Shown here: piece after piece, positions 15,365 to 31,411 of the stretch
How positions within the stretch are numbered: position 1 is the stretch's first letter
Layout of the letters: each line of letters starts with the position of its first letter
Source of the DNA: Spirochaetaceae bacterium
GTDB lineage: Bacteria > Spirochaetota > Spirochaetia > DSM-27196 > SLAA01
NCBI GenBank assembly: GCA_003556605.1
Contig: PWQX01000041.1
Location: 1 to 36,115 of the forward strand
DNA: 36,115 nucleotides
Direction: 5' to 3'
Translations under genes and position numbers: made by a program
Notes under the pieces: generated by a model
The model's database searches: none
What the model was told of the DNA's origin: nothing
The model's input: only the letters and a program-made list of their open reading frames with translations

Positions 15365-17671
15365 TCATTTCGGGGCGGTTGCGAGCGTGTTCGGTTCGCT
15401 CTCGACAGCCGTGTCGTAGGCAGCCAGCGTCTGCCTCATCATCTTCAATTCAGCAAGGGCAAGCAGGAACGAGAGGATCGACTCGGCGCCCATGTTGCGG
15501 TTGACCCTGTCGATCTGCAGCCCGTCGTAGCACCCGGCGTACTGCGGGTCGTACAGCGGCAGTCCGAGATCGTTCCTGCCGAGGAACCAGTCGAAGGCGA
15601 TCTGCGCCTCCTCGTGCCAGCGCGGCTCCTGGGTCACGAGGTAGGCGACGAGCGCCGCCGAGACGGTCGAGTAGGCCTCGATCGGCTGTTGATCGTATAT
15701 CGCGGCGGTGCCGTTGCGCGCAAAGAACCCGTTGTTGCCGACCGCCCTGAAGCAGCCGGCCTCGGACTTCTGAATGCGGCACAGCCACTCGAGCGCGCGT
15801 AGCCCGATCTGCAGCAGCTCCTGATTCTCGAGCATACGGCCGGCGAGGAGAGCCGCCGCCGGAAGACGCGCGTTGGCGTACGATAGGGTCTGCTCGAACC
15901 ACGGCCAGTCGGGCTTCGCCGCCGCACGGTAGAGCTTAAGCAGTTTTGCCGCGAGTGCCTCGGCGACCTGCCGCGCGGCGCGGTCGCCGGGAAACCGCCT
16001 TGTATACTCGTACAGACCGCTGAGCGTGAACGCCCAGGCGCGCGGCGAGCTCGTCTCGATCGCCCGCGGAAGGGCGACTGCCAACAGCTCGGCAGCCCAC
16101 GACAGCAATCCGGCATCCTGCGTGCGGCCGACCGCGGTGCCGAGCGCCCAGAGAACCCGACCGTTGCTGTCTTCCGATCCGCGCTTGTCGAGCCAGCGCC
16201 GGTCGAATGACATGAAGTTGTGAAACGTGCCGGTCTCGGGGATGTACGCGTAGGTAAGGAACGCTGCATAGGTGCTGCGCAGCCCGGCAAGCTCCGTGTC
16301 GGGATGGTTCAGCTCCTCGAGCAGAACCGCGAGCATGAAAGCCCGCGCGGCGTCGTCGGTGCAGTATCCGTGGGAGAAATCCGGCACGGTATACGCGGCG
16401 TGCTGTATCACGCCGGTGTAGTCGCTGAGCCGCTTCAGGTGTTCGAGCCGCAGCTCGGGCAGTCTTCGTCCGGCCTGGGCGAGGGTCTTCACCGGAGCCG
16501 CCGGCGCGGCGAGCGCGGCACGCGCCTCGCGCGCCGAGCGGAACATGGCCAGATACTGATGGGCCACCTGACTCCAGGTCATCTCCCTGCCGAGCAGGTA
16601 CGCGCGTTTTCGATACGCGTGCCGCCGCACCTCGTCGGCGAGAAGCTCCGACACCGCTTTAGCGAGCGCCGAGGAGTCGCGGAACGGCACGAGGACACCG
16701 CGTTCCTCAGCGAGCATCTCGGCCGCGTGCCAGTAGGGAGTGGAGACCACAGCCTTGCCGCAGCCGAACGCGTAGGCCAGGGGTCCCGAGGTGATCTGCG
16801 CTTCGTTGTGATACGGGGTGACGTACACGTCGGCGGCGCCGAGAAACTCCTTGAGCTCCTCGGGCTCCACGAAGCGGTTGAAGAATATCACCCGATCTTT
16901 GACCCCGAGCTGCTCGGCCAAGCGCTCGAGGCTCATGCGGTAACTCTCGCCTTGCTTACGCAGCAGGTTAGGGTGCGTCGCGCCGAGTACGACGTACACG
17001 ACATCCGGCACCCGCTCGGCGACCTCCGGCAGGGCGGTTATCATCTCCTCGATACCCTTGTCGGGAGACAGCAGACCGAAGGTAAGGATGACCTTCTTGC
17101 CTTCCACGCCGAACTGGTCCTTGAAGAAATTGGGATCTATGAACGGCATGTCCGGAATGCCGTGGGGTATGACCGTGACCCGTTCCTCCTTGATTCCGTA
17201 GATCTCCTGAAGCATGCTCCGGCCGCGCTGGGTCATCACAACGAGCGTGGTCGAGACCGCGGCGAGCTTCTCGAGAACGCGCCGCTGGTCGGCGGTCGGC
17301 TCCCGCAGGATCGTGTGCAGCGTCGTGACTACCGGCGCCTGTACGGCGCGCGCAAGCGCGAGGATGTTGCTTCCGGCAGGGCCGCCGTAGATGCCGTACT
17401 CGTGCTGAATACAGACGAGCCCGGTCTTGCTCAGATTGATGAACTCCGCCGCCTGCTCGTAACTCTGCAGATCGTTCTCGGCGATCTCGAAACGGACCTC
17501 CGGCGGATAGTCGTAACCCTCGGGGGTGTCGCTGACCGAACACACGAAGCAGTCGGCCTCGGGGTCCTGTTCGGCAACCGCGTTGCGCAGATCGTAGGTG
17601 AAGGTGGCGATGCCGCAGCGGCGCGGGACATAGTCGCCCACGAAAGCGATCTTCTTCGGGCTGCTCGTCAT
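15365..17671 (-). CDS. Two-domain GT4 glycosyltransferase with C-terminal six-hairpin-like domain
   Basis: A 768-residue cytoplasmic protein. Residues 1 to about 385 form a GT-B glycosyltransferase of family 4: FVGDYVPRRCGIATFTYDL at the acceptor side, VIPHGIPDMPF, then TFGLLSPDKGIEEMI and the nucleotide-sugar region TSGPLAYAFGCGKAVVSTPYWHA. After an Ala/Pro linker (about 390-405), residues 410-755 are an all-helical domain (YCTDDAARAFML, NGRVLWALG, EAYSTVSAALVAY) like six-hairpin glycosidase toroids. The same file thus joins synthesis and a glycan-binding or trimming fold. The ATG overlaps the GH130 stop (ATGA, 17671-17668), so the two are co-translated. Donor and product are not identifiable from sequence. 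Confidence 0.85.
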   Translation of the reverse strand: MTSSPKKIAFVGDYVPRRCGIATFTYDLRNAVAEQDPEADCFVCSVSDTPEGYDYPPEVRFEIAENDLQSYEQAAEFINLSKTGLVCIQHEYGIYGGPAGSNILALARAVQAPVVTTLHTILREPTADQRRVLEKLAAVSTTLVVMTQRGRSMLQEIYGIKEERVTVIPHGIPDMPFIDPNFFKDQFGVEGKKVILTFGLLSPDKGIEEMITALPEVAERVPDVVYVVLGATHPNLLRKQGESYRMSLERLAEQLGVKDRVIFFNRFVEPEELKEFLGAADVYVTPYHNEAQITSGPLAYAFGCGKAVVSTPYWHAAEMLAEERGVLVPFRDSSALAKAVSELLADEVRRHAYRKRAYLLGREMTWSQVAHQYLAMFRSAREARAALAAPAAPVKTLAQAGRRLPELRLEHLKRLSDYTGVIQHAAYTVPDFSHGYCTDDAARAFMLAVLLEELNHPDTELAGLRSTYAAFLTYAYIPETGTFHNFMSFDRRWLDKRGSEDSNGRVLWALGTAVGRTQDAGLLSWAAELLAVALPRAIETSSPRAWAFTLSGLYEYTRRFPGDRAARQVAEALAAKLLKLYRAAAKPDWPWFEQTLSYANARLPAAALLAGRMLENQELLQIGLRALEWLCRIQKSEAGCFRAVGNNGFFARNGTAAIYDQQPIEAYSTVSAALVAYLVTQEPRWHEEAQIAFDWFLGRNDLGLPLYDPQYAGCYDGLQIDRVNRNMGAESILSFLLALAELKMMRQTLAAYDTAVESEPNTLATAPK

Positions 17672-19170
17672 GTCGTATGGTAGCCTCCTTCGCCTTGGTG
17701 TTTGCGGCCGGTCGGACCCCAGCGCAAAAGCTCCTCGAGAAGCTCATCAAGCGCTATCAGAGCGAAGCTCGAGGACTGGTCGCTCATTGCGTAAGGCAGC
17801 ACAAGTCTTCCGGCATGTACCAGGGCGCCGCAGCTGTACAAGACGTTCGGTACGTAGCCTTCCCGCTCGTGCTCTATCGGGGTCATCAGCGGCTGCGGCA
17901 GACGGCCGAGGACTACGGCCGGATCATTCTTCTCGAGCAGGACGGCGCCGAGAGAGTATTTGCGCATCGGTCCCACCCCGTGGGTGATCAGCAGCCAGCC
18001 GGCCTCGGTCTCGATCGGCGATCCGCAGTTTCCGATCTGGACCGCTTCCCACCAGAAGGTCGGACGCAGGATGCGCCGGCGCGTGTACCAGAAGTGCAGC
18101 ATATCGGAGTACATGAGGTAGATGTTCTCGTTGTCCTGCCGGGCGAGCATCGCGTAATGTCCGTTGATCCTGCGCGGGAAAAGCGCGAGGCCCTTGTTCT
18201 CGACCATCGGGCCGTTGAGCGTGGTGATACGAAAGCGCTGAAAATCGTCTGTCTCGAGCATCTGCGGCAGTATCAGCTCGCCGCTGAAAGCGGTGTACGG
18301 CGCGTAGTAGGTGACGCTCCCCTCCTCCTCGGTAAACGCTACAAAGCGGGCATCCTCGATTCCGTAACGCTCGGCCGGAGAGTTCGGGTAAATTACGCAT
18401 TCTGAGAGACGGCGGGTCGCTTGAAACTGCAGCTCGTAGTTCGCCTGTGCGAGTGCGCGGACACCTTCGAGCAGGTGCCGCTCCTCGGCCGTTACCGAGC
18501 GGTCACGGCGCAGCTCGCGCGCGACCTGCCCTTCCAGTTCGGTCAGCGTGAAGCTGTCGTCGAGGCGCGCCATGACCGAGTCGACCCGCCGGCTCAGAAG
18601 GCCGAGCTCGCCGAGCTTGCGCAGAAACAGCTCCTTGTCGTAGTAGGGGTCGGGATTGCTGTCGCCTGCGGTGGAGTACTCCGCCGGTGGAAGGATCTCG
18701 ATGGTTCCGTCGGTGCTCACTATGCCGTCGCGGAAGACGATCGAGGAGATGTGTCCCTCGCCGACCGCCCGCAGACTGAGGACGAACCGAAGCGCCCCTT
18801 CAGGAAGCTCCGACTGGTCGGGGTGCGGAACGATCGACGGATTGAAGAGCGCAGCCGCCTCGAGCGCGTACTCCTGCGTGAATGCGGCGCCGATGAGGAT
18901 CTTGCGGCTATCGCTCAGCGTACGATCGGTCGGCAGGTGCGGCTCCACCTGTTCGAATCGGCGAAGCAGATACGCGCGGAGGCGATCATGACGACCGTCG
19001 AACTCGAGGGCAATGCGCTGTGCGAGGCGGGTTGCTTCGGTCTCCGGCAGATACAGCAGCCGAGAGACAACGCGCGAGGCGCGTTCTTCCGGACCGATGC
19101 CGAGGGGGCGGAACAATACCCGCGAGCTGTCCGGCCTGACGTAGACACCGGTGCGGTGAACTTCCAGCAC
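17668..19170 (-). CDS. GH130-type glycoside phosphorylase/hydrolase
   Basis: A 500-residue protein starting at GTG 19170, with GGAGAAGGGAGAG upstream. The C-terminal two thirds form the five-bladed beta-propeller of family GH130: RYGIEDARFVAF carries the conserved catalytic Asp, and GNCGSPIETEAGWLLITHGVG and YSLGAVLLE are typical. GH130 enzymes act on beta-mannosides, many by phosphorolysis giving mannose 1-phosphate. An N-terminal extension of about 200 residues, partly helical, precedes the propeller, making it longer than the usual 300-400. Overlap with the glycosyltransferase and divergence from a second GT4 gene suggest a shared oligosaccharide pathway, probably mannose-based (inference). 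Confidence 0.85.
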   Translation of the reverse strand: MLEVHRTGVYVRPDSSRVLFRPLGIGPEERASRVVSRLLYLPETEATRLAQRIALEFDGRHDRLRAYLLRRFEQVEPHLPTDRTLSDSRKILIGAAFTQEYALEAAALFNPSIVPHPDQSELPEGALRFVLSLRAVGEGHISSIVFRDGIVSTDGTIEILPPAEYSTAGDSNPDPYYDKELFLRKLGELGLLSRRVDSVMARLDDSFTLTELEGQVARELRRDRSVTAEERHLLEGVRALAQANYELQFQATRRLSECVIYPNSPAERYGIEDARFVAFTEEEGSVTYYAPYTAFSGELILPQMLETDDFQRFRITTLNGPMVENKGLALFPRRINGHYAMLARQDNENIYLMYSDMLHFWYTRRRILRPTFWWEAVQIGNCGSPIETEAGWLLITHGVGPMRKYSLGAVLLEKNDPAVVLGRLPQPLMTPIEHEREGYVPNVLYSCGALVHAGRLVLPYAMSDQSSSFALIALDELLEELLRWGPTGRKHQGEGGYHTT

Positions 19171-19202
19171 GGTACGTACTCTCCCTTCTCCTGTGTGAGC
19201 TA

Positions 19203-19243
19203 ATCATACATAGTCGCGTACCGCGCGGCAATACGTAATGCCG
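19203..19243 (-). promoter_or_regulatory. Promoter and palindrome ahead of the GH130 gene
   Basis: Read on the minus strand, TTGCCG (19231-19226), a 17-base spacer and TATGAT (19208-19203) form a good housekeeping promoter. A near-palindrome, CGGCA (19226-19230) and TGCCG (19239-19243) around a central TACGTA, overlaps the -35 and could be an operator. Confidence 0.6.
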
Positions 19244-19254
19244 CACGGTGAGCC

Positions 19255-19288
19255 TTGACAAGAGAGGGATGGTGAGCTAGGTTCTCAC
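19255..19288 (+). promoter_or_regulatory. Promoter and inverted repeat ahead of the second GT4 gene
   Basis: A consensus -35 TTGACA (19255-19260) is followed after 17 bases by TAGGTT (19278-19283). GTGAG (19272-19276) and CTCAC (19284-19288) flank the -10 as an inverted repeat. GTGAGC also occurs at 19195-19200 and 19248-19253, so three copies lie in the divergent region, consistent with one repressor controlling both directions. Confidence 0.55.
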
Positions 19289-19296
19289 AGGCGCAC

Positions 19297-20358
19297 GTGA
19301 AGATCGGAATTATCGCACCTATCGCTTGGCGGACTCCGCCACGTCACTACGGGCCGTGGGAACGAATCGCCCATCTGCATGCCGAGGGGCTCGTTGCTGC
19401 AGGGGAGGAGGTGACGCTCTTTGCCACGCAAGACTCCCGTACCTCGGGACGGCTTTCGGCGGTCTGCCCCAGACCGTACGAGGAAGACGAGAGTCTCGAT
19501 CCAAAGGTCTGGGAATGCCTGCATATCGCCCACGCTATGGAGCATGCCGGCGAGTTTGAGATCCTGCATAACCACTTCGATTTTCTCCCATTGAGTTACT
19601 CGCTCCTGATCGAGACGCCGCTGGTCACCACGATTCACGGCTTCTCATCACCCCGGATCCTGCCGGCGTATCGGGCGTACGACAACCGCGCCTACTACGT
19701 TTCGATCAGCGACGCCGACCGCGCCCCGGAACTGAGTTACGCCGCGACCGTGTATCACGGGCTGCCTATTGAGCAGTTTCCCTTCAGCCCGGACCCGGCG
19801 GACTATCTCTTGTTCTTCGGCCGCATCCATCACGACAAAGGCACGCGCGAGGCGATCGAGATCGCTCGCCGAGCGGGGATGCGTCTCCGGATCGCCGGCA
19901 TCGTTCAGGACCGGCAGTACCATGAGCGCGAAGTGCTGCCGCACGTCGACGGCCGGCGGATCACGTATGAGGGACCGGCCGGCCCTGAGGAGCGCCGGCG
20001 GCTGTTGGGGGGAGCGCTCGCGTTGCTGCACCCGATCAATTTCGCCGAGCCGTTCGGATTGAGCGTCGCCGAAGCGATGCTCTGCGGCACGCCGGTGATC
20101 GCGTTCAATCGCGGATCGATGCCGGAACTGATCCGGCATCGGCGGACCGGGTTCCTGGTGAACGGCATCGAGGAGGCCGTTGAGGCGGTCGGGCGGGTGG
20201 GGGAGATACGCCGCAGCGACTGCCGTGACTGGGCTGCCGCACGATTTACCGCCGAACGGATGGTGGAGGACTACCGAACACTCTACCGGCGCATCCTCGC
20301 CGGTGAGCTCACGCCGATGGGCGTGGCCTGCGGCGGGGTCAGAAAACCTCGAGTATAA
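19297..20358 (+). CDS. GT4 glycosyltransferase
   Basis: A 353-residue GT-B fold enzyme starting at GTG 19297, a few bases after the predicted transcription start, so the message may be nearly leaderless. The N-terminal domain begins MKIGIIAPIAWRTPP, with YGPWERIAHLHAEGL, and has the acceptor-side IHGFSSP. The C-terminal domain has FFGRIHHDKGTREAIEIA and the donor-binding EX7E region AEPFGLSVAEAMLCGTPVIAF with RGSMPELI. Family 4 enzymes use nucleotide sugars with retention. It is divergent from the GH130/GT pair. The three together resemble a small conserved glycan module, but the product is not known. Confidence 0.9.
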   Translation: MKIGIIAPIAWRTPPRHYGPWERIAHLHAEGLVAAGEEVTLFATQDSRTSGRLSAVCPRPYEEDESLDPKVWECLHIAHAMEHAGEFEILHNHFDFLPLSYSLLIETPLVTTIHGFSSPRILPAYRAYDNRAYYVSISDADRAPELSYAATVYHGLPIEQFPFSPDPADYLLFFGRIHHDKGTREAIEIARRAGMRLRIAGIVQDRQYHEREVLPHVDGRRITYEGPAGPEERRRLLGGALALLHPINFAEPFGLSVAEAMLCGTPVIAFNRGSMPELIRHRRTGFLVNGIEEAVEAVGRVGEIRRSDCRDWAAARFTAERMVEDYRTLYRRILAGELTPMGVACGGVRKPRV

Positions 20359-24671: not shown

Positions 24672-27600
24672 ATGTGCTCCCAGCTCCTTGCGCCGCGAGA
24701 TCGCTTTTACTATTATTCGACGGTGGCCACAGACAGGCAAAGCCTCGGCCTGCTGATCGGGCAGGCGTTTCTCGTTGGGCTTGCGTTCGGTTTGCTGTAC
24801 AATGTCGCCTACACGTCACTGGTGTACGAACACGGCTCGGCCGGACTGCGGGTGGTGTATGTACTGGTGGGTGCCGTCGTTCCGATTGTGACGGTCGGCT
24901 TCAATGCGCTTGAAGAACGCCTCTCGTTATCGAGCCTTTCTCTCTTCACCGTCGGGTCCTTCGCGGTTGCAGTTTTCCTGCTGTATTTCCTGACTTTGAC
25001 TTCGAACGCCCCGTGGATCGCGTATATTCTCATGTTGGTCAACACCATGGGGAGCCTGTACTGTATGATGCTGCGCGGCGCTCAAGCTTCGCAGCTGTAC
25101 GATGCGAGGACGCTAAAGCGACGCTACCCCCGCGTTACCGGTGGCGAGATTCTTGCGGTTGTCCTCGCCGGTATCATCGTTGCTCCTCTCGCCGGCGTGC
25201 TCGGTTCGCTGGAGCGGGTGATACCGGTGGCCGGCGCAATCATGCTTGCTGCGCTGTACCTGGTGCATCGTATCGGTACGGACTTTCTCGCGCCGCAGGA
25301 GCTTCCGCACTCGCACGCGGGTCGGGAGCCGGAGTCGGCACACGAGCGGCATGGTTTCGCGGCGCTGCGGGCGATAATCAGCAAGAAATACACGCTGGTT
25401 GTCTTCGGGTATCAATTGGCCTGCTACGCGACTTCGCTTCTGGTTCAGTACCTCGTATACTCCGAGGCGCAGCAGTTCTTCGCTACCCAGGCCGAGTTGA
25501 GCCGGTTTATCGGTCTGGTGAAGTCCGGTACCACCGGGCTGGGCTTTCTGTTCCTCACTTTTGTGGCCGGTCGGCTGCTAGTGAAGTTCGGGATGCCGGT
25601 GGGTCTGGCAGGAAGCCCGGTCGGTGTCGGGCTGTTGCTGTTTGCAGCTGTGATCGCCGGAGTGTTCGACGACGGTACCGGGCGCAGCTTCTTCGTGCTC
25701 ATCGTTGCTTCACAGTTCGTCGATTACATGCTCTATTCGGGGTTCACAAAGACCTCGGTGCAGAGCGCCTTTCAACCATTGCCGGCGCATGAGCGCGAAG
25801 CGGTTCACACCTTCGTGCAGGGCGTCGGAATCCCCCTGAGTTACGGCGTGACGGGGCTGCTGCTGATCGGCTTTGCTCAGATCCCTGGTTTCACTACCGC
25901 CCACGCCGTGTATCTGACACTCGGTGCGGTCGGCGTCTCGGGCTTTCTCGGTGCGCTGCTCTATCGCGGCTACGGAGGCGAGCTGCGCAACTCGCTTACG
26001 CGCCGGCATATCGACGCGGTCGACTTCAGGCTCGAAGATGCATCGACGCTGCAGATTATCGATTCGCTGTTCAGTTCAAACGACCCGCGGCAGATTAGGA
26101 GCGGACTGGAGCTGCTGCAGGAAACCGGGCACCGGAGCTACGCAAATCGGCTCGAGACGCTGATCGACCACCCGAATCCCGAGGTCCGATGCGACGTATA
26201 TCACCGAATCGAGGCGATTGCTCCCGGCTGGGCGACCCCGGCACTCACCCGTGCAATCGCCGCAGAACAGGATGTAGCCGCCCGCGGGAGCGCCATCTGC
26301 GCGCTGTGCGCGGTGCTCGATGAGCCGGCTCCTACGATCAAGCCGTATCTCGAGTCTGATACACCGGCGCTGCGTACTGCGGCCGTCACCGGGCTTTTCC
26401 TGTACGGCGGGATCAACGGCATCCTGCAGGCCGGCGACGTGTTCAACAGGCTGGCTGAATCGGCAGACTCGCGCGAACGCAAGGATGCCGCGGAGATTCT
26501 CGAGCGGGTGGGCATACGCAACTTCTACCATCCGCTGCACGCACTGCTACGGGACTCGGATTTTCAGGTGGTGCGGGCCGCGCTGCGGGCCGCCCGCGCG
26601 GTTGCCCACCCGGCGCTGATTAACGACATCCTGCCGTGGATAGACCCGGTTACCACCCGCGCCGAGGCACTCGGTGCGCTGGCGGCCCAAGGGCCGGCGC
26701 TAACGCCGTTGCTCGAAAGCTGTCTCACCGGAAGCTCCACGCTGCGGCGCGCCTCGATACTGCGCGTGATCCATGCTGCCTCGCGGGTGAATGACGAGAG
26801 CATTGTACGCACCTTCGAAGCGGCGCTGGAGCACCCGGATCCGCAGATCGCCCACGCGAGCTATACGGCGTTGAATCGGCGGGGATACTCAGCCGGCGCC
26901 CGGACGCGGCCGATTGTCGTTCGCAGGCTGTATGTGTATACGCAGATGGCTGCGCGGGCGACCTTGGCGCTTTCGGAGCTAGGCGGAGACCGCCGGCTGC
27001 AGCCGATCATCTCGGCTCTTGAGGATGTTTACAGCCGGCAACTTGAATCGGTCTTTCTGCTCCTGACCTTTGTGCACGACCCGGATGAGATCATGGGTAT
27101 GCGCCACAAAATCGTTGCCGGCGATGCCAAACAGCGCGCGCTCGGTCTCGAACTGCTGGAGGTAGAGCTGTCGGGACAGATCAGGCAACGAGTGCTCGCT
27201 ATAGCTGAATACCCCGATAACCGGAGGCTGGACTCGGCCGGCTACGGTGAGCTGTTCGGGCTGGCTGCGGTCGCACCAAGCGAACGGGTGCGGGAAATAC
27301 TCGAGGATGATGATCGGTGGCCGCCGGAAGCGTGGTTGCGTACTTGCGCCACGCACGCGGCATATACTCTCGGCCTTGGCGCCGAAGCACCGGAGGATAC
27401 CGTGCTTACTATGATAGAGCGGGTAATTACGCTGAAATCAGCGGATATTTTTTCCAGCATCCCGGACGCCATTCTGGCACACATTGCGTCGATTGCCGAG
27501 GATCTGGAAGTCTCGCCCAAACAGACCTTCATCCGCCAGGGTGATCTTGGAACCTGCATGTACATCATCCGAAACGGCCGGGTCGCGATTCACGATGAGC

Positions 27601-27824
27601 AGACCCGTTTCGCGGAGCTGGACTCCGGGAGGGTGGTCGGTGAAATGGCGGTGCTCGACCCTGAGCCCCGTTCGGCGTCGGCTACGGCGCTCGAGAATAC
27701 CTCCCTGCTGAGGATCGACAAGGATGCGTTCGACTCGGTGATGGTTGACCACCCGGATATCGCGCAGGCGGTGATCCAGGTACTCTGCCGTCGCATGCGC
27801 GCTATGATCAAGCAAAGGGAGTGA
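24672..27824 (+). CDS. Nucleotide-transporter-like membrane protein fused to HEAT repeats and a cyclic-nucleotide-binding domain
   Basis: A 1050-residue protein in three parts. Residues 1 to about 440 hold some ten to twelve hydrophobic helices resembling the ATP/ADP translocase-like (NTT/MFS) group, for example LYNVAYTSLVYEHGSAGLRVVYVLVGAVV. Residues about 450-900 are a helical array with HEAT-like spacing (SGLELLQETG, EVRCDVYHRIEAI, AEALGALAAQGPAL, PDPQIAHASYTALNRRG). The last 120 residues are a CRP/PKA-type cyclic-nucleotide-binding fold: FIRQGDLGTCMYIIRNGRV, then VVGEMAVLDPEPRSASA, which keeps the Glu and Arg that hold the cyclic phosphate. NTT-HEAT fusions are known from free-living bacteria. 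The likely model is a cNMP-gated transporter or sensor; the substrate is unknown. The start is not backed by a ribosome binding site. Confidence 0.75.
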   Translation: MCSQLLAPRDRFYYYSTVATDRQSLGLLIGQAFLVGLAFGLLYNVAYTSLVYEHGSAGLRVVYVLVGAVVPIVTVGFNALEERLSLSSLSLFTVGSFAVAVFLLYFLTLTSNAPWIAYILMLVNTMGSLYCMMLRGAQASQLYDARTLKRRYPRVTGGEILAVVLAGIIVAPLAGVLGSLERVIPVAGAIMLAALYLVHRIGTDFLAPQELPHSHAGREPESAHERHGFAALRAIISKKYTLVVFGYQLACYATSLLVQYLVYSEAQQFFATQAELSRFIGLVKSGTTGLGFLFLTFVAGRLLVKFGMPVGLAGSPVGVGLLLFAAVIAGVFDDGTGRSFFVLIVASQFVDYMLYSGFTKTSVQSAFQPLPAHEREAVHTFVQGVGIPLSYGVTGLLLIGFAQIPGFTTAHAVYLTLGAVGVSGFLGALLYRGYGGELRNSLTRRHIDAVDFRLEDASTLQIIDSLFSSNDPRQIRSGLELLQETGHRSYANRLETLIDHPNPEVRCDVYHRIEAIAPGWATPALTRAIAAEQDVAARGSAICALCAVLDEPAPTIKPYLESDTPALRTAAVTGLFLYGGINGILQAGDVFNRLAESADSRERKDAAEILERVGIRNFYHPLHALLRDSDFQVVRAALRAARAVAHPALINDILPWIDPVTTRAEALGALAAQGPALTPLLESCLTGSSTLRRASILRVIHAASRVNDESIVRTFEAALEHPDPQIAHASYTALNRRGYSAGARTRPIVVRRLYVYTQMAARATLALSELGGDRRLQPIISALEDVYSRQLESVFLLLTFVHDPDEIMGMRHKIVAGDAKQRALGLELLEVELSGQIRQRVLAIAEYPDNRRLDSAGYGELFGLAAVAPSERVREILEDDDRWPPEAWLRTCATHAAYTLGLGAEAPEDTVLTMIERVITLKSADIFSSIPDAILAHIASIAEDLEVSPKQTFIRQGDLGTCMYIIRNGRVAIHDEQTRFAELDSGRVVGEMAVLDPEPRSASATALENTSLLRIDKDAFDSVMVDHPDIAQAVIQVLCRRMRAMIKQRE

Positions 27825-28617: not shown

Positions 28618-28758
28618 CGGCGAGAGCTGCAGGCGCGAGCTCACCGAGCACTTGCGAAAGACGCTGCGCAGATGGGTATCGACGGTTCGGGGTGATATGA
28701 ACAGCAGGTCGGCGGCGTGGCGAATCCGCGGCTCGAGCAGACCGAAGGCATCGCGCAA
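28618..28758 (-). pseudogene. LuxR-type helix-turn-helix fragment
   Basis: Minus-strand text ADLLFISPRTVDTHLRSVFR and then KCSVSSRLQLS is the C-terminal LuxR/NarL DNA-binding helix pair, with the family's SxRTVxxHLxxVFRKLxVSSR pattern. The receiver or sensor part is absent, and the upstream edge abuts RND transporter sequence on the other strand near 28740. A rearrangement scar. Confidence 0.6.
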
Positions 28759-30100
28759 ACGTTCGTCATGGGCGGTCGCGATCCGGTGGTGCGAGTCGAT
28801 ATATCGCGTGCTCGGCTAGACGCCTACCGCTTGAGCTTCGCAGAGATCGCCGAAGCGTTGCGTGAGCAAAACATCGATATGAACGCCGGAAAGCTGCTTG
28901 AAGGCGAGCGCGACTACCTCGTGCGGACCAACGGCGCGTTTCGTAGTCTCGACGGGGTTGCAACTGCCGTGGTTTCTGAGCGTGGCGGTCGCGTTGTGCG
29001 CCTGCAGCACCTCGGGCAGGTATCGAGCGGGTACCGGTGCGAGCAAAACCGTGTCTACATAGACGGCGAGCTGCCCGGCGGAGTTCGCCATGCGTTCATC
29101 TCCGATACAACCGAGATTATCCGTAATTCGTTGGCAACGATGTCCGGACAGGCGGCAGCCGGCGCTGTGCTCGCGGTGCTGGTGCTGTTCGTCTTTCTGC
29201 GCAGCGTACGCTCTACGCTGGTGGTTGCGGTCTCAATTCCCGCCTCGGTGCTCATCACGCTTGCGGTTATGTACTTTGCGGGCTTTCCGCTCAACCTCAT
29301 GACGCTCGCCGGACTTGTACTTGCAGTGGGTCTGCTGGTCGACAGCTCGATCGTGATTCTTGAGAGCATCTATCGCCACCGCCAGCGCGGAACCAAACTA
29401 CGAACCGCGGCGTTCATGGGAACCCGCGAAATGGTAGGGGCGATCACCGCGGCAACGCTTACCACGGTCTCTGTGTTTCTACCGCTGGTGATGTTTCGCC
29501 GGCAGCTGGAGCTCGCCGGTGAGCTGTTCGCGAGCCTGGCGTTTACGGTTGTGATCTCCCTGCTTGCTTCGCTTGTGGTAGCGGCATTTCTTGTGCCGGT
29601 ACTTGCCGCGCGCTTCTTCCCGCTTATTAGCACACGACAGCGCCCGCTGCGCAGCCGCCCGGCGCGGCTTAATGCATTGGTTGCGGCCGGCTTCGCGCGC
29701 CTCGAGACCGCCTGCACGCGAAGCCATCGGTGATCATGTCACGCTCGGCGACGAGGTTGCTCTGCGGTTTGAGGGTGATTACGCCGGCTTGAAGCGCTAC
29801 GGGGGCGTATTCGCCGCGGTAGTCGCTGCGGCGGTACTTCTGGTCTTCGGAGTGATGGCGGCGCAGTTCGAGTCGTTCAGCGACCCGTTGATCATCTCTT
29901 TCGCGATTCCATTGACGTTTGTCGACGTGATCGCGGCCCACTATCTGCTTGCAGTTTCGATCAGTCTCTTTAGTGCGCTCGGGTTCGTGATGCTTCTCGG
30001 TATGGCGGTGGATAACGGTATCGGAGCAGCACTGCTCTTAACGCTCTACCTGGTACCGGTACTCTACGCCGCGCTCAACCGCTACACCGAGCGCTGGTGG
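28738..30100 (+). pseudogene. RND-family efflux transporter, truncated and frameshifted
   Basis: Two pieces of an AcrB/MdtB-like pump. The first (to 29733) starts inside the first porter domain (GIAQTFVMGGRDPVVRVDIS). It runs through the helices with GLVLAVGLLVDSSIVILESIYRH, where the proton-relay Asp is kept, and stops after LVPVLAARFFPL. Near 29710-29735 the frame changes, and sequence from the second half resumes (GDHVTLGDEVALRFEGDYAGL, GVMAAQFESFSDPLIISFAIPL). The second porter domain is missing, and part of the last helices is also lost (GMAVDNGI is followed directly by GAALLLTLYLVPVLYAAL). The N-terminal helix and start codon are gone. It cannot make a working trimer. Confidence 0.85.
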
Positions 30101-30256
30101 CCGTCGCGCGCGAAGCTCGAATCGAGGGCTGCACCGCCGAAACTCCCGCCAAGGTGCTCATCCCATTGCGGCACAGCCAAACGCCCAGTATCATACGGCA
30201 ATGACGAGAGAACAGCTTGCCGCAAGCCCGGGAAAAGCGCATACAAGGAGGAAACG

Positions 30257-31411
30257 ATGTCGGTGCAATCAATCCGCCCGATGCAACAGGACGAACAGCG
30301 CGCGCTGAAACGGCTTGCCCGGCGCGCGTTCGGGTTTGTACAAGGCAGTTTCGTCAAGCCGACCGAGCATACGTTTGTGTACGAGCTTTCAGGAGAGATT
30401 GCAGGGGTTGTGGTGCTTGACACCTTCACCTTCAAGCGCAATCGGCTCGGCGGCGTCGTGAAGTGGTTGTTCACCGATCCGAGGGCACGTGGCCGCGGCG
30501 TAGCTGCCGCGCTGATCGAGCATTCGGTCCGCCAACTGCAGGAACACGGCTGCGACGAGCTGTTTACCACAGTTGAAGGCTGCAATACGGCCTCGAGTAA
30601 CCGTTTCGCCGATCAAGGCTTTGTCCCGCTTAGTGCTATGCAGCAGATCCGTCGTTACGGTATGAGCTTACTGAAGATCGGCCCAAACACGTTTCACACG
30701 ATCGACCTCGGCCATTTCCTCTGGGCCCGAGCCGGGCAAACGCCCCGGAGTCCGGAAGCGCCTGAGAGTCCACAAGGCACCCAAACGCCGGTTGCGGGCG
30801 GCGGCGCAGCGGCTTGGTTGGCGAATGTGCTGATTGCGGCAGCTATTCTGCCGCTGCAGCGACTGCGTGCCGGCGCAGCGAGTGAGCTGTATCTGGAGCT
30901 CGTGTGGCAGTTGCCGGTCGCGGTTGCGTTGGTGTTCGGCGTACGTTCGCTTGCAATGAAGCTGGCGGCGCACCGGCTTGGCTTGGAGCTTCGTTATCGA
31001 ATCTGGGAAACCGGACTTACGCTCTCGGCGCTGGTCGCTGTGCTGTTAAGCGGCGTGTTGCCGTCTCCGGGGTCGTATTATCCTAAGCCGGCGCGCTGGA
31101 GCTACCGAGCGGAGCTGCCGCGGCTTGCAATCGTGGCGTTTTTCGGTGCGCTCTCGGTGCTGGTACTCGCCTGGCTGCTGTGGGCCTACGAAGCAGCAGC
31201 ACTCGGCAGCAGCGCACCTGCGGTGGTCAACGACCTGCTCCGCCTTGCGGTCGTACCGGTGCAGGCGTTACTGGTTTTCGAGGTGCTTCTGCCGTTCTTT
31301 CCCTTCGCCTCGTACAACGGCCGGCGGGTATGGGACCACGACCGCGCGCTCTGGGGCATTTTGGCCGCCGGAACCGTCGCCCTTCTGCTGGTTCGCAGCA
31401 CCGGAATCTAA
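30257..31411 (+). CDS. GNAT acetyltransferase fused to a membrane domain resembling an inactive M50 protease
   Basis: ATG 30257 has a strong site, AAGGAGG (30245-30251). Of 384 residues, about 1-155 are a GNAT domain: VVVLDTFTFKRNRLGGVVKWLFTDP and the acetyl-CoA loop RARGRG (76-81), then TTVEGCNTASSNRFADQGFV. A Pro-rich linker (160-182) leads to about six membrane helices. In these, KLAAHRLGLELRYRIWETGLTLS (about 235-257), GVLPSPGSYYPKP and FFPFASYNGRRVWDHD resemble membrane proteases of the site-2/M50 type. The place expected to read HExxH reads RSLAM and the LDG site is ASYNG, so no zinc site is evident. It would be an acetyltransferase on a membrane scaffold; the substrate is unknown. The M50 likeness is by eye. 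Confidence 0.75.
   Translation: MSVQSIRPMQQDEQRALKRLARRAFGFVQGSFVKPTEHTFVYELSGEIAGVVVLDTFTFKRNRLGGVVKWLFTDPRARGRGVAAALIEHSVRQLQEHGCDELFTTVEGCNTASSNRFADQGFVPLSAMQQIRRYGMSLLKIGPNTFHTIDLGHFLWARAGQTPRSPEAPESPQGTQTPVAGGGAAAWLANVLIAAAILPLQRLRAGAASELYLELVWQLPVAVALVFGVRSLAMKLAAHRLGLELRYRIWETGLTLSALVAVLLSGVLPSPGSYYPKPARWSYRAELPRLAIVAFFGALSVLVLAWLLWAYEAAALGSSAPAVVNDLLRLAVVPVQALLVFEVLLPFFPFASYNGRRVWDHDRALWGILAAGTVALLLVRSTGI

Follow-up and report, generated by a model that had tools for sequence, protein, structure and literature searches.

Can a membrane protein that carries a cyclic-nucleotide-binding domain (cNBD) on its own chain be a transporter under second-messenger control, and would its cargo be a nucleotide? 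This question is raised by a single gene in the window, by which we mean the whole 36,115-nucleotide stretch of Spirochaetaceae bacterium DNA that was analysed (contig PWQX01000041.1, assembly GCA_003556605.1). A preliminary description had read the gene as one 1050-residue chain joining a nucleotide-transporter-like membrane domain, a HEAT-like array and a cNMP domain that keeps its phosphate-binding Glu and Arg, and had suggested that transport is gated by cAMP or a related nucleotide. Conservation is given below over 18 aligned rows, the window protein and 17 relatives, and the features that enter the argument are these.

24672..27824, forward strand: whole three-domain gene, 1050 aa, ATG start, no internal stop
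24741..25991, forward strand: membrane domain, residues about 24-440, 12 predicted TM helices, assigned to the NTT/TLC superfamily, MFS fold
24858..24860, forward strand: Tyr63, aligned with AtNTT1 Lys155; Tyr in 17/17 rows having a residue
25044..25046, forward strand: Thr125, closest in alignment to AtNTT1 Glu245; 0/18 rows have an acidic residue at most five positions away
25446..25448, forward strand: Gln259, aligned with AtNTT1 Glu385; Gln in 18/18 rows
25722..25820, forward strand: predicted cytosolic loop 10-11, residues 351-383; 16/33 residues invariant, the highest conservation among the membrane domain's long loops
25842..25844, forward strand: Tyr391, aligned with AtNTT1 Lys527; Tyr in 18/18 rows
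26040..27368, forward strand: HEAT-like alpha-solenoid, residues 457-899, about 26 helices (Pfam, AlphaFold)
27402..27821, forward strand: cNBD and C-terminal helix, residues 911-1050, the best-conserved domain of the chain
27633..27677, forward strand: phosphate-binding cassette, residues 988-1002, with Glu991 and Arg1000, each in 18/18 rows

The fusion of three domains in one chain is borne out, as the frame is intact and a 12-helix N-terminus is followed by Pfam HEAT_2 (PF13646, E 1e-12, five stretches C-terminal to the membrane domain) and, at the C-terminus, by cNMP_binding (PF00027, residues 946-1025, E 6e-19). The domain search that the preliminary description had proposed thus recovered two of its three families; the third, TLC (PF03219), was not found in the chain by Pfam at E up to 1, and NCBIfam gave sub-cutoff matches only, to the cNBD and HEAT parts. 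In a full-length AlphaFold model built on a shallow alignment of six sequences, the helices of the HEAT region mostly have pLDDT 73-92, and the membrane domain and cNBD have pLDDT under 50.

No Pfam transporter family reaches its cut-off with the window protein's own membrane domain (MFS_1 comes closest, E 0.12), and it is more distant relatives that connect the domain to a known superfamily. Pfam TLC is found at E 3e-15 in L019 and at E 1e-4 to 1e-3 in L018, L015 and L016, and L019 alone retrieves AtNTT1 from the PDB at E 9e-9. In profile-profile comparison the close clade matched seven PF03219-positive fused relatives with a probability of 99.6% (E 3e-24, 409 columns), with the controls (MatE, AcrB and SNF-type proteins and a reversed set) all under 0.4%; the match to four stand-alone TLC proteins was weaker (probability 70%, E 4e-5). 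Searched against the PDB, a profile of 19 membrane domains, hand-picked for score and completeness (alignment A5: nine of the 18 close rows, three of four intermediates and seven proteins from phylum loci), aligned over nearly the whole domain with Chlamydia pneumoniae NTT1 (9j3n, E 1e-21) and AtNTT1 (9j3j, E 2e-16), and the nine close rows alone gave 9j3n as their single hit (E 4e-4). AlphaFold modelled the isolated membrane domain poorly (mean pLDDT 48, pTM 0.49). On this low-confidence model AtNTT1 ranked first among solved structures in Foldseek (E 8e-5) and first again in VIA-align (Z 25.3, rmsd 4.0 Å, 366 of 429 residues), with other MFS carriers at Z about 22 and below, instead of the unrelated membrane fold that the preliminary description had named as the prediction that would count against it. 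Profile and fold searches together indicate that the membrane domain belongs to the NTT/TLC superfamily and has an MFS fold, though Pfam TLC misses it; the earlier wording, nucleotide-transporter-like, is supported at the level of the superfamily, with no sequence model naming the domain directly.

Hydropathy analysis gave 12 peaks over residues 24-430, and because Lys and Arg number 23 in the even loops versus 4 in the odd loops, both the N- and C-termini are predicted to be cytosolic. Conservation within the domain is highest in the predicted cytosolic loops, with a mean of 0.76 (a value that excludes most of loop 6-7, residues 202-236) versus 0.62 for the TM helices and 0.67 for the periplasmic loops; loop 10-11 has a mean of 0.84, and loop 6-7 is poorly conserved at 0.38.

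The identity of the cargo was approached through the transport site of AtNTT1, whose positions were mapped by profile alignment to the PDB and by alignment A5. K155, E245, E385 (which we take from earlier work to be an essential residue) and K527 correspond to Tyr63, Thr125, Gln259 and Tyr391 of the window protein. Across the 18 rows, all four charged positions are replaced in every row covering them, either by the residue found in the window or by an uncharged one, with Thr, Ile or Ala at position 125. In AtNTT1 itself, according to PMC3306366, nucleotide binding is lost or weakened when K155 or K527 is mutated, and exchange almost ceases in E245K. The K155 and K527 positions are replaced in the seven fused TLC-positive relatives too, so the loss of this pair is not peculiar to the window's branch; the acidic pair is kept in 7/7 of these relatives (Glu at E245, Glu or Asp at E385). 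In a tree of the 19 A5 rows, which carries a long-branch warning and for which no root is claimed, a branch with 100/100 support separates the nine close rows from the rest.

These replacements bear directly on the idea of a cAMP-gated carrier of ATP/ADP or other nucleotides whose transport is adjusted to the energy state of the cell. Such a carrier would fit the NTT superfamily membership seen in profiles and the intact cNBD cassette, and it is the hypothesis put forward by Major et al. 2017 (PMC5381601), but the loss of all four charged positions in every row covering them, together with the AtNTT1 mutant phenotypes, makes it an unlikely account of this protein. Because of the same replacements the label 'nucleotide transporter' is doubtful for the window's branch, even as the domain reading of the preliminary description stands, and the cargo is probably not ATP exchanged against ADP as in AtNTT1.

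At the other end of the chain, the cassette motif VVGEMAVLDPEPRSASAT holds Glu991 and Arg1000, which line up with their counterparts in cGMP-dependent protein kinases, and Gly990, Glu991, Arg1000, Ser1001 and Ala1002 are invariant in 18/18 rows. By alignment, then, the residues that bind the cyclic phosphate are retained in the cNBD, as had been claimed for the Glu and Arg. Among solved structures in the PDB, cGMP-dependent kinases match the cNBD best, with a cAMP-dependent kinase subunit and SthK next. The Ser after the cassette Arg does not settle the choice between cAMP and cGMP. Since the protein's own genome encodes six class III cyclase domains, which may use either ATP or GTP, a source of ligand exists. 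Not every CRP-fold domain binds a cyclic nucleotide, as some take other ligands and some none, and the AlphaFold model of the cNBD is of low confidence; the fold could accordingly have been kept for structure or dimerisation, or for a ligand other than a cyclic nucleotide. We regard this as improbable for a domain that is the best conserved of the chain, in which Glu991, Arg1000, Ser1001 and Ala1002 do not vary and whose top PDB matches are cGMP- and cAMP-dependent kinases and a spirochaete channel.

The reading that we favour, at a probability of roughly one half, is that the protein is a cyclic-nucleotide-responsive secondary transporter whose cargo is probably not exchanged as ATP/ADP. The HEAT solenoid and cNBD follow on the predicted cytosolic C-terminus of the 12-helix domain; cAMP or cGMP made in the cell would bind the cNBD, and the solenoid could relay the resulting change to loops 4-5 and 10-11, which are conserved and predicted to be cytosolic, altering transport. 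The replaced site residues suggest that the cargo may be some other solute, possibly a related nucleotide, a phosphorylated compound or an uncharged one. Such a putative gating route via the cytosolic face is in keeping with the higher conservation of the predicted cytosolic loops. We also put forward, tentatively and as a clearly less probable proposal, that spirochaetes possess an unrecognised branch of the NTT superfamily in which the substrate has changed and which is now a second-messenger-gated secondary transporter, cAMP or cGMP controlling a cytosolic gate via a HEAT lever. The membrane domain might instead not transport at all and serve as a solute sensor or anchor, making the HEAT-cNBD part a membrane-bound signalling scaffold. 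Replacement of the NTT transport-site residues and the concentration of conservation in the cytosolic loops and cNBD are what such a scaffold would predict, but the retention of twelve helices with many invariant polar membrane residues is as expected of a working carrier, and we give the scaffold little credence.

Relatives with the same architecture in 17 cases rule out an assembly chimera. All three domains are covered by 17 of the 18 aligned rows, the window among them, and the 17 relatives are 45-61% identical to the window protein along the whole chain. The mean share of the commonest residue over the 18 rows is 0.62-0.69 in the membrane halves, 0.55-0.63 in HEAT and 0.79 in the cNBD part. 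These rows omit sequences cut by contig or locus ends (L010/L042, L012/L044, L013/L045, L038, L039, L043, L047 and L048), L026, which duplicates L009, and L015-L019, which are more distant relatives. Two close pairs gave dN/dS near 0.1 (0.030/0.263 for L038/L039; for L031/L032 about 0.016/0.14-0.18 in membrane plus HEAT and 0.005/0.15 in the cNBD); the membrane-domain value for L027/L028 was discarded as the pair was unaligned and out of register. The chain is under purifying selection, and because it is kept along its whole length at this identity in 17 relatives with dN/dS about 0.1, the fusion is conserved beyond chance. Two apparent HEAT-cNBD-only versions in the same genus, L038 and L039, were set aside, as both stop at contig edges.

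Matches at E 1e-40 or better occur in 22 of the 46 genomes of the window's order, and matches at E 1e-30 in 7 of 296 genomes sampled from the phylum; both counts include the protein's own genome. A search of genome contigs gave five loci, four from Spirochaetales or Spirochaetaceae MAGs and one, L011, labelled Chitinispirillum; in the phylum of that label, 1 of 167 genomes matched, and this was the same locus. The Chitinispirillum-labelled relative (L011:6570-9722) nests among spirochaete sequences in the tree, and reflects either horizontal transfer or a misbinned contig. Matches in a search of 72,556 plasmid records were to the cNBD alone, in 2 records, and no relatives were found in viral contigs. 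The protein's own genome has no PF03219 match, which means little since that model also misses the 1050-aa protein. No conserved operon that would name a substrate was found, and over 17 stretches no neighbour is common beyond near relatives.

The architecture itself is not new. The preliminary description had presented the triple fusion as a step beyond known NTT-HEAT proteins, but both NTT-HEAT and NTT-HEAT-cNBD fusions are described by Major et al. 2017 (PMC5381601), who suggest that ATP uptake is adjusted through cAMP binding at the cNBD. The same paper reports such fusions, uncharacterised, in cyanobacteria, chlamydiae and oomycetes as well, and a two-cNBD arrangement in oomycetes and Bacilli, and its survey gives no NTT in Spirochaetes. 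In our phylum sample, PF03219 at E up to 0.01 is found in 22 of 296 genomes and exceeds the family cut-off in 14, many of the matching frames being 1000-1200 residues long. PMC6995639 repeats the 2017 fusion finding only, and beyond it no functional study or later paper on the fusion was found in the literature searched. The words charged, residue and lysine are absent from the main text of PMC5381601, so site replacement seems undiscussed there.

With an NTT domain by profiles and fold ranking, HEAT C-terminal to it and a C-terminal PF00027, the window protein is, on the sequence evidence, a divergent branch of this known fusion family, and new as a branch. It shares with the published fusions the same three domains, their order and the proposed cAMP link; it differs in being too divergent for Pfam TLC and in lacking the two acidic residues that the seven other fused relatives keep. 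The canonical ATP-ADP carriers (AtNTT1, 9j3j/9j3m; C. pneumoniae NTT1, 9j3n) share its membrane fold and full-length profile similarity but have neither HEAT nor cNBD, and the window protein has none of the charged residues K155, E245, E385 and K527 that mark an AtNTT1-type carrier. Closer at hand in the same phylum, L015-L018 (about 1180-1210 aa) also combine TM, HEAT and cNBD in one chain and are homologous along most of its length, but bear two C-terminal cNBDs, with a weak TLC match in 3 of the 4. SthK, the cAMP-gated K+ channel of Spirochaeta thermophila, has a C-terminal cNBD in common with the window protein (E 3e-15 for the isolated domain), likewise on a membrane protein of the same phylum; its membrane domain is unrelated, being an ion channel and not MFS. 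Ligand-gated channels bearing a cNBD are well known, and we know of no secondary transporter shown to be controlled by a cNBD within the same polypeptide. Both the domain arrangement and the proposal of cAMP-adjusted transport had thus been published before; the subfamily itself was not found in the literature searched. The most notable feature of the branch is the loss of all four canonical site residues alongside a fully kept cNBD. The branch offers a potentially separable cNBD and invariant residues for direct test, and it cautions against calling every member of the NTT-HEAT fusion family a 'nucleotide transporter', a name that may not fit some of them.

Two other regions of the window deserve mention. 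Just downstream (28717-31411, forward strand), an AcrB-like RND pump seems broken into two overlapping frames, its pieces matching ACR_tran positions 308-495 and 832-934 and the second frame continuing into a GNAT-type protein. Elsewhere in the order this GNAT-type protein is free-standing at about 380-440 aa and AcrB-like frames are mostly about 1050-1160 aa; the window's broken gene is probably either a pump gene that has decayed or an artefact of assembly. As a candidate conserved neighbour of the fusion the AcrB-like gene was rejected, being present in the window and three other stretches, those three near relatives of each other. At 15365-20358, two GT4-type glycosyltransferases stand around a GH130-type mannooligosaccharide phosphorylase-like gene, possibly a set for glycan synthesis and turnover.
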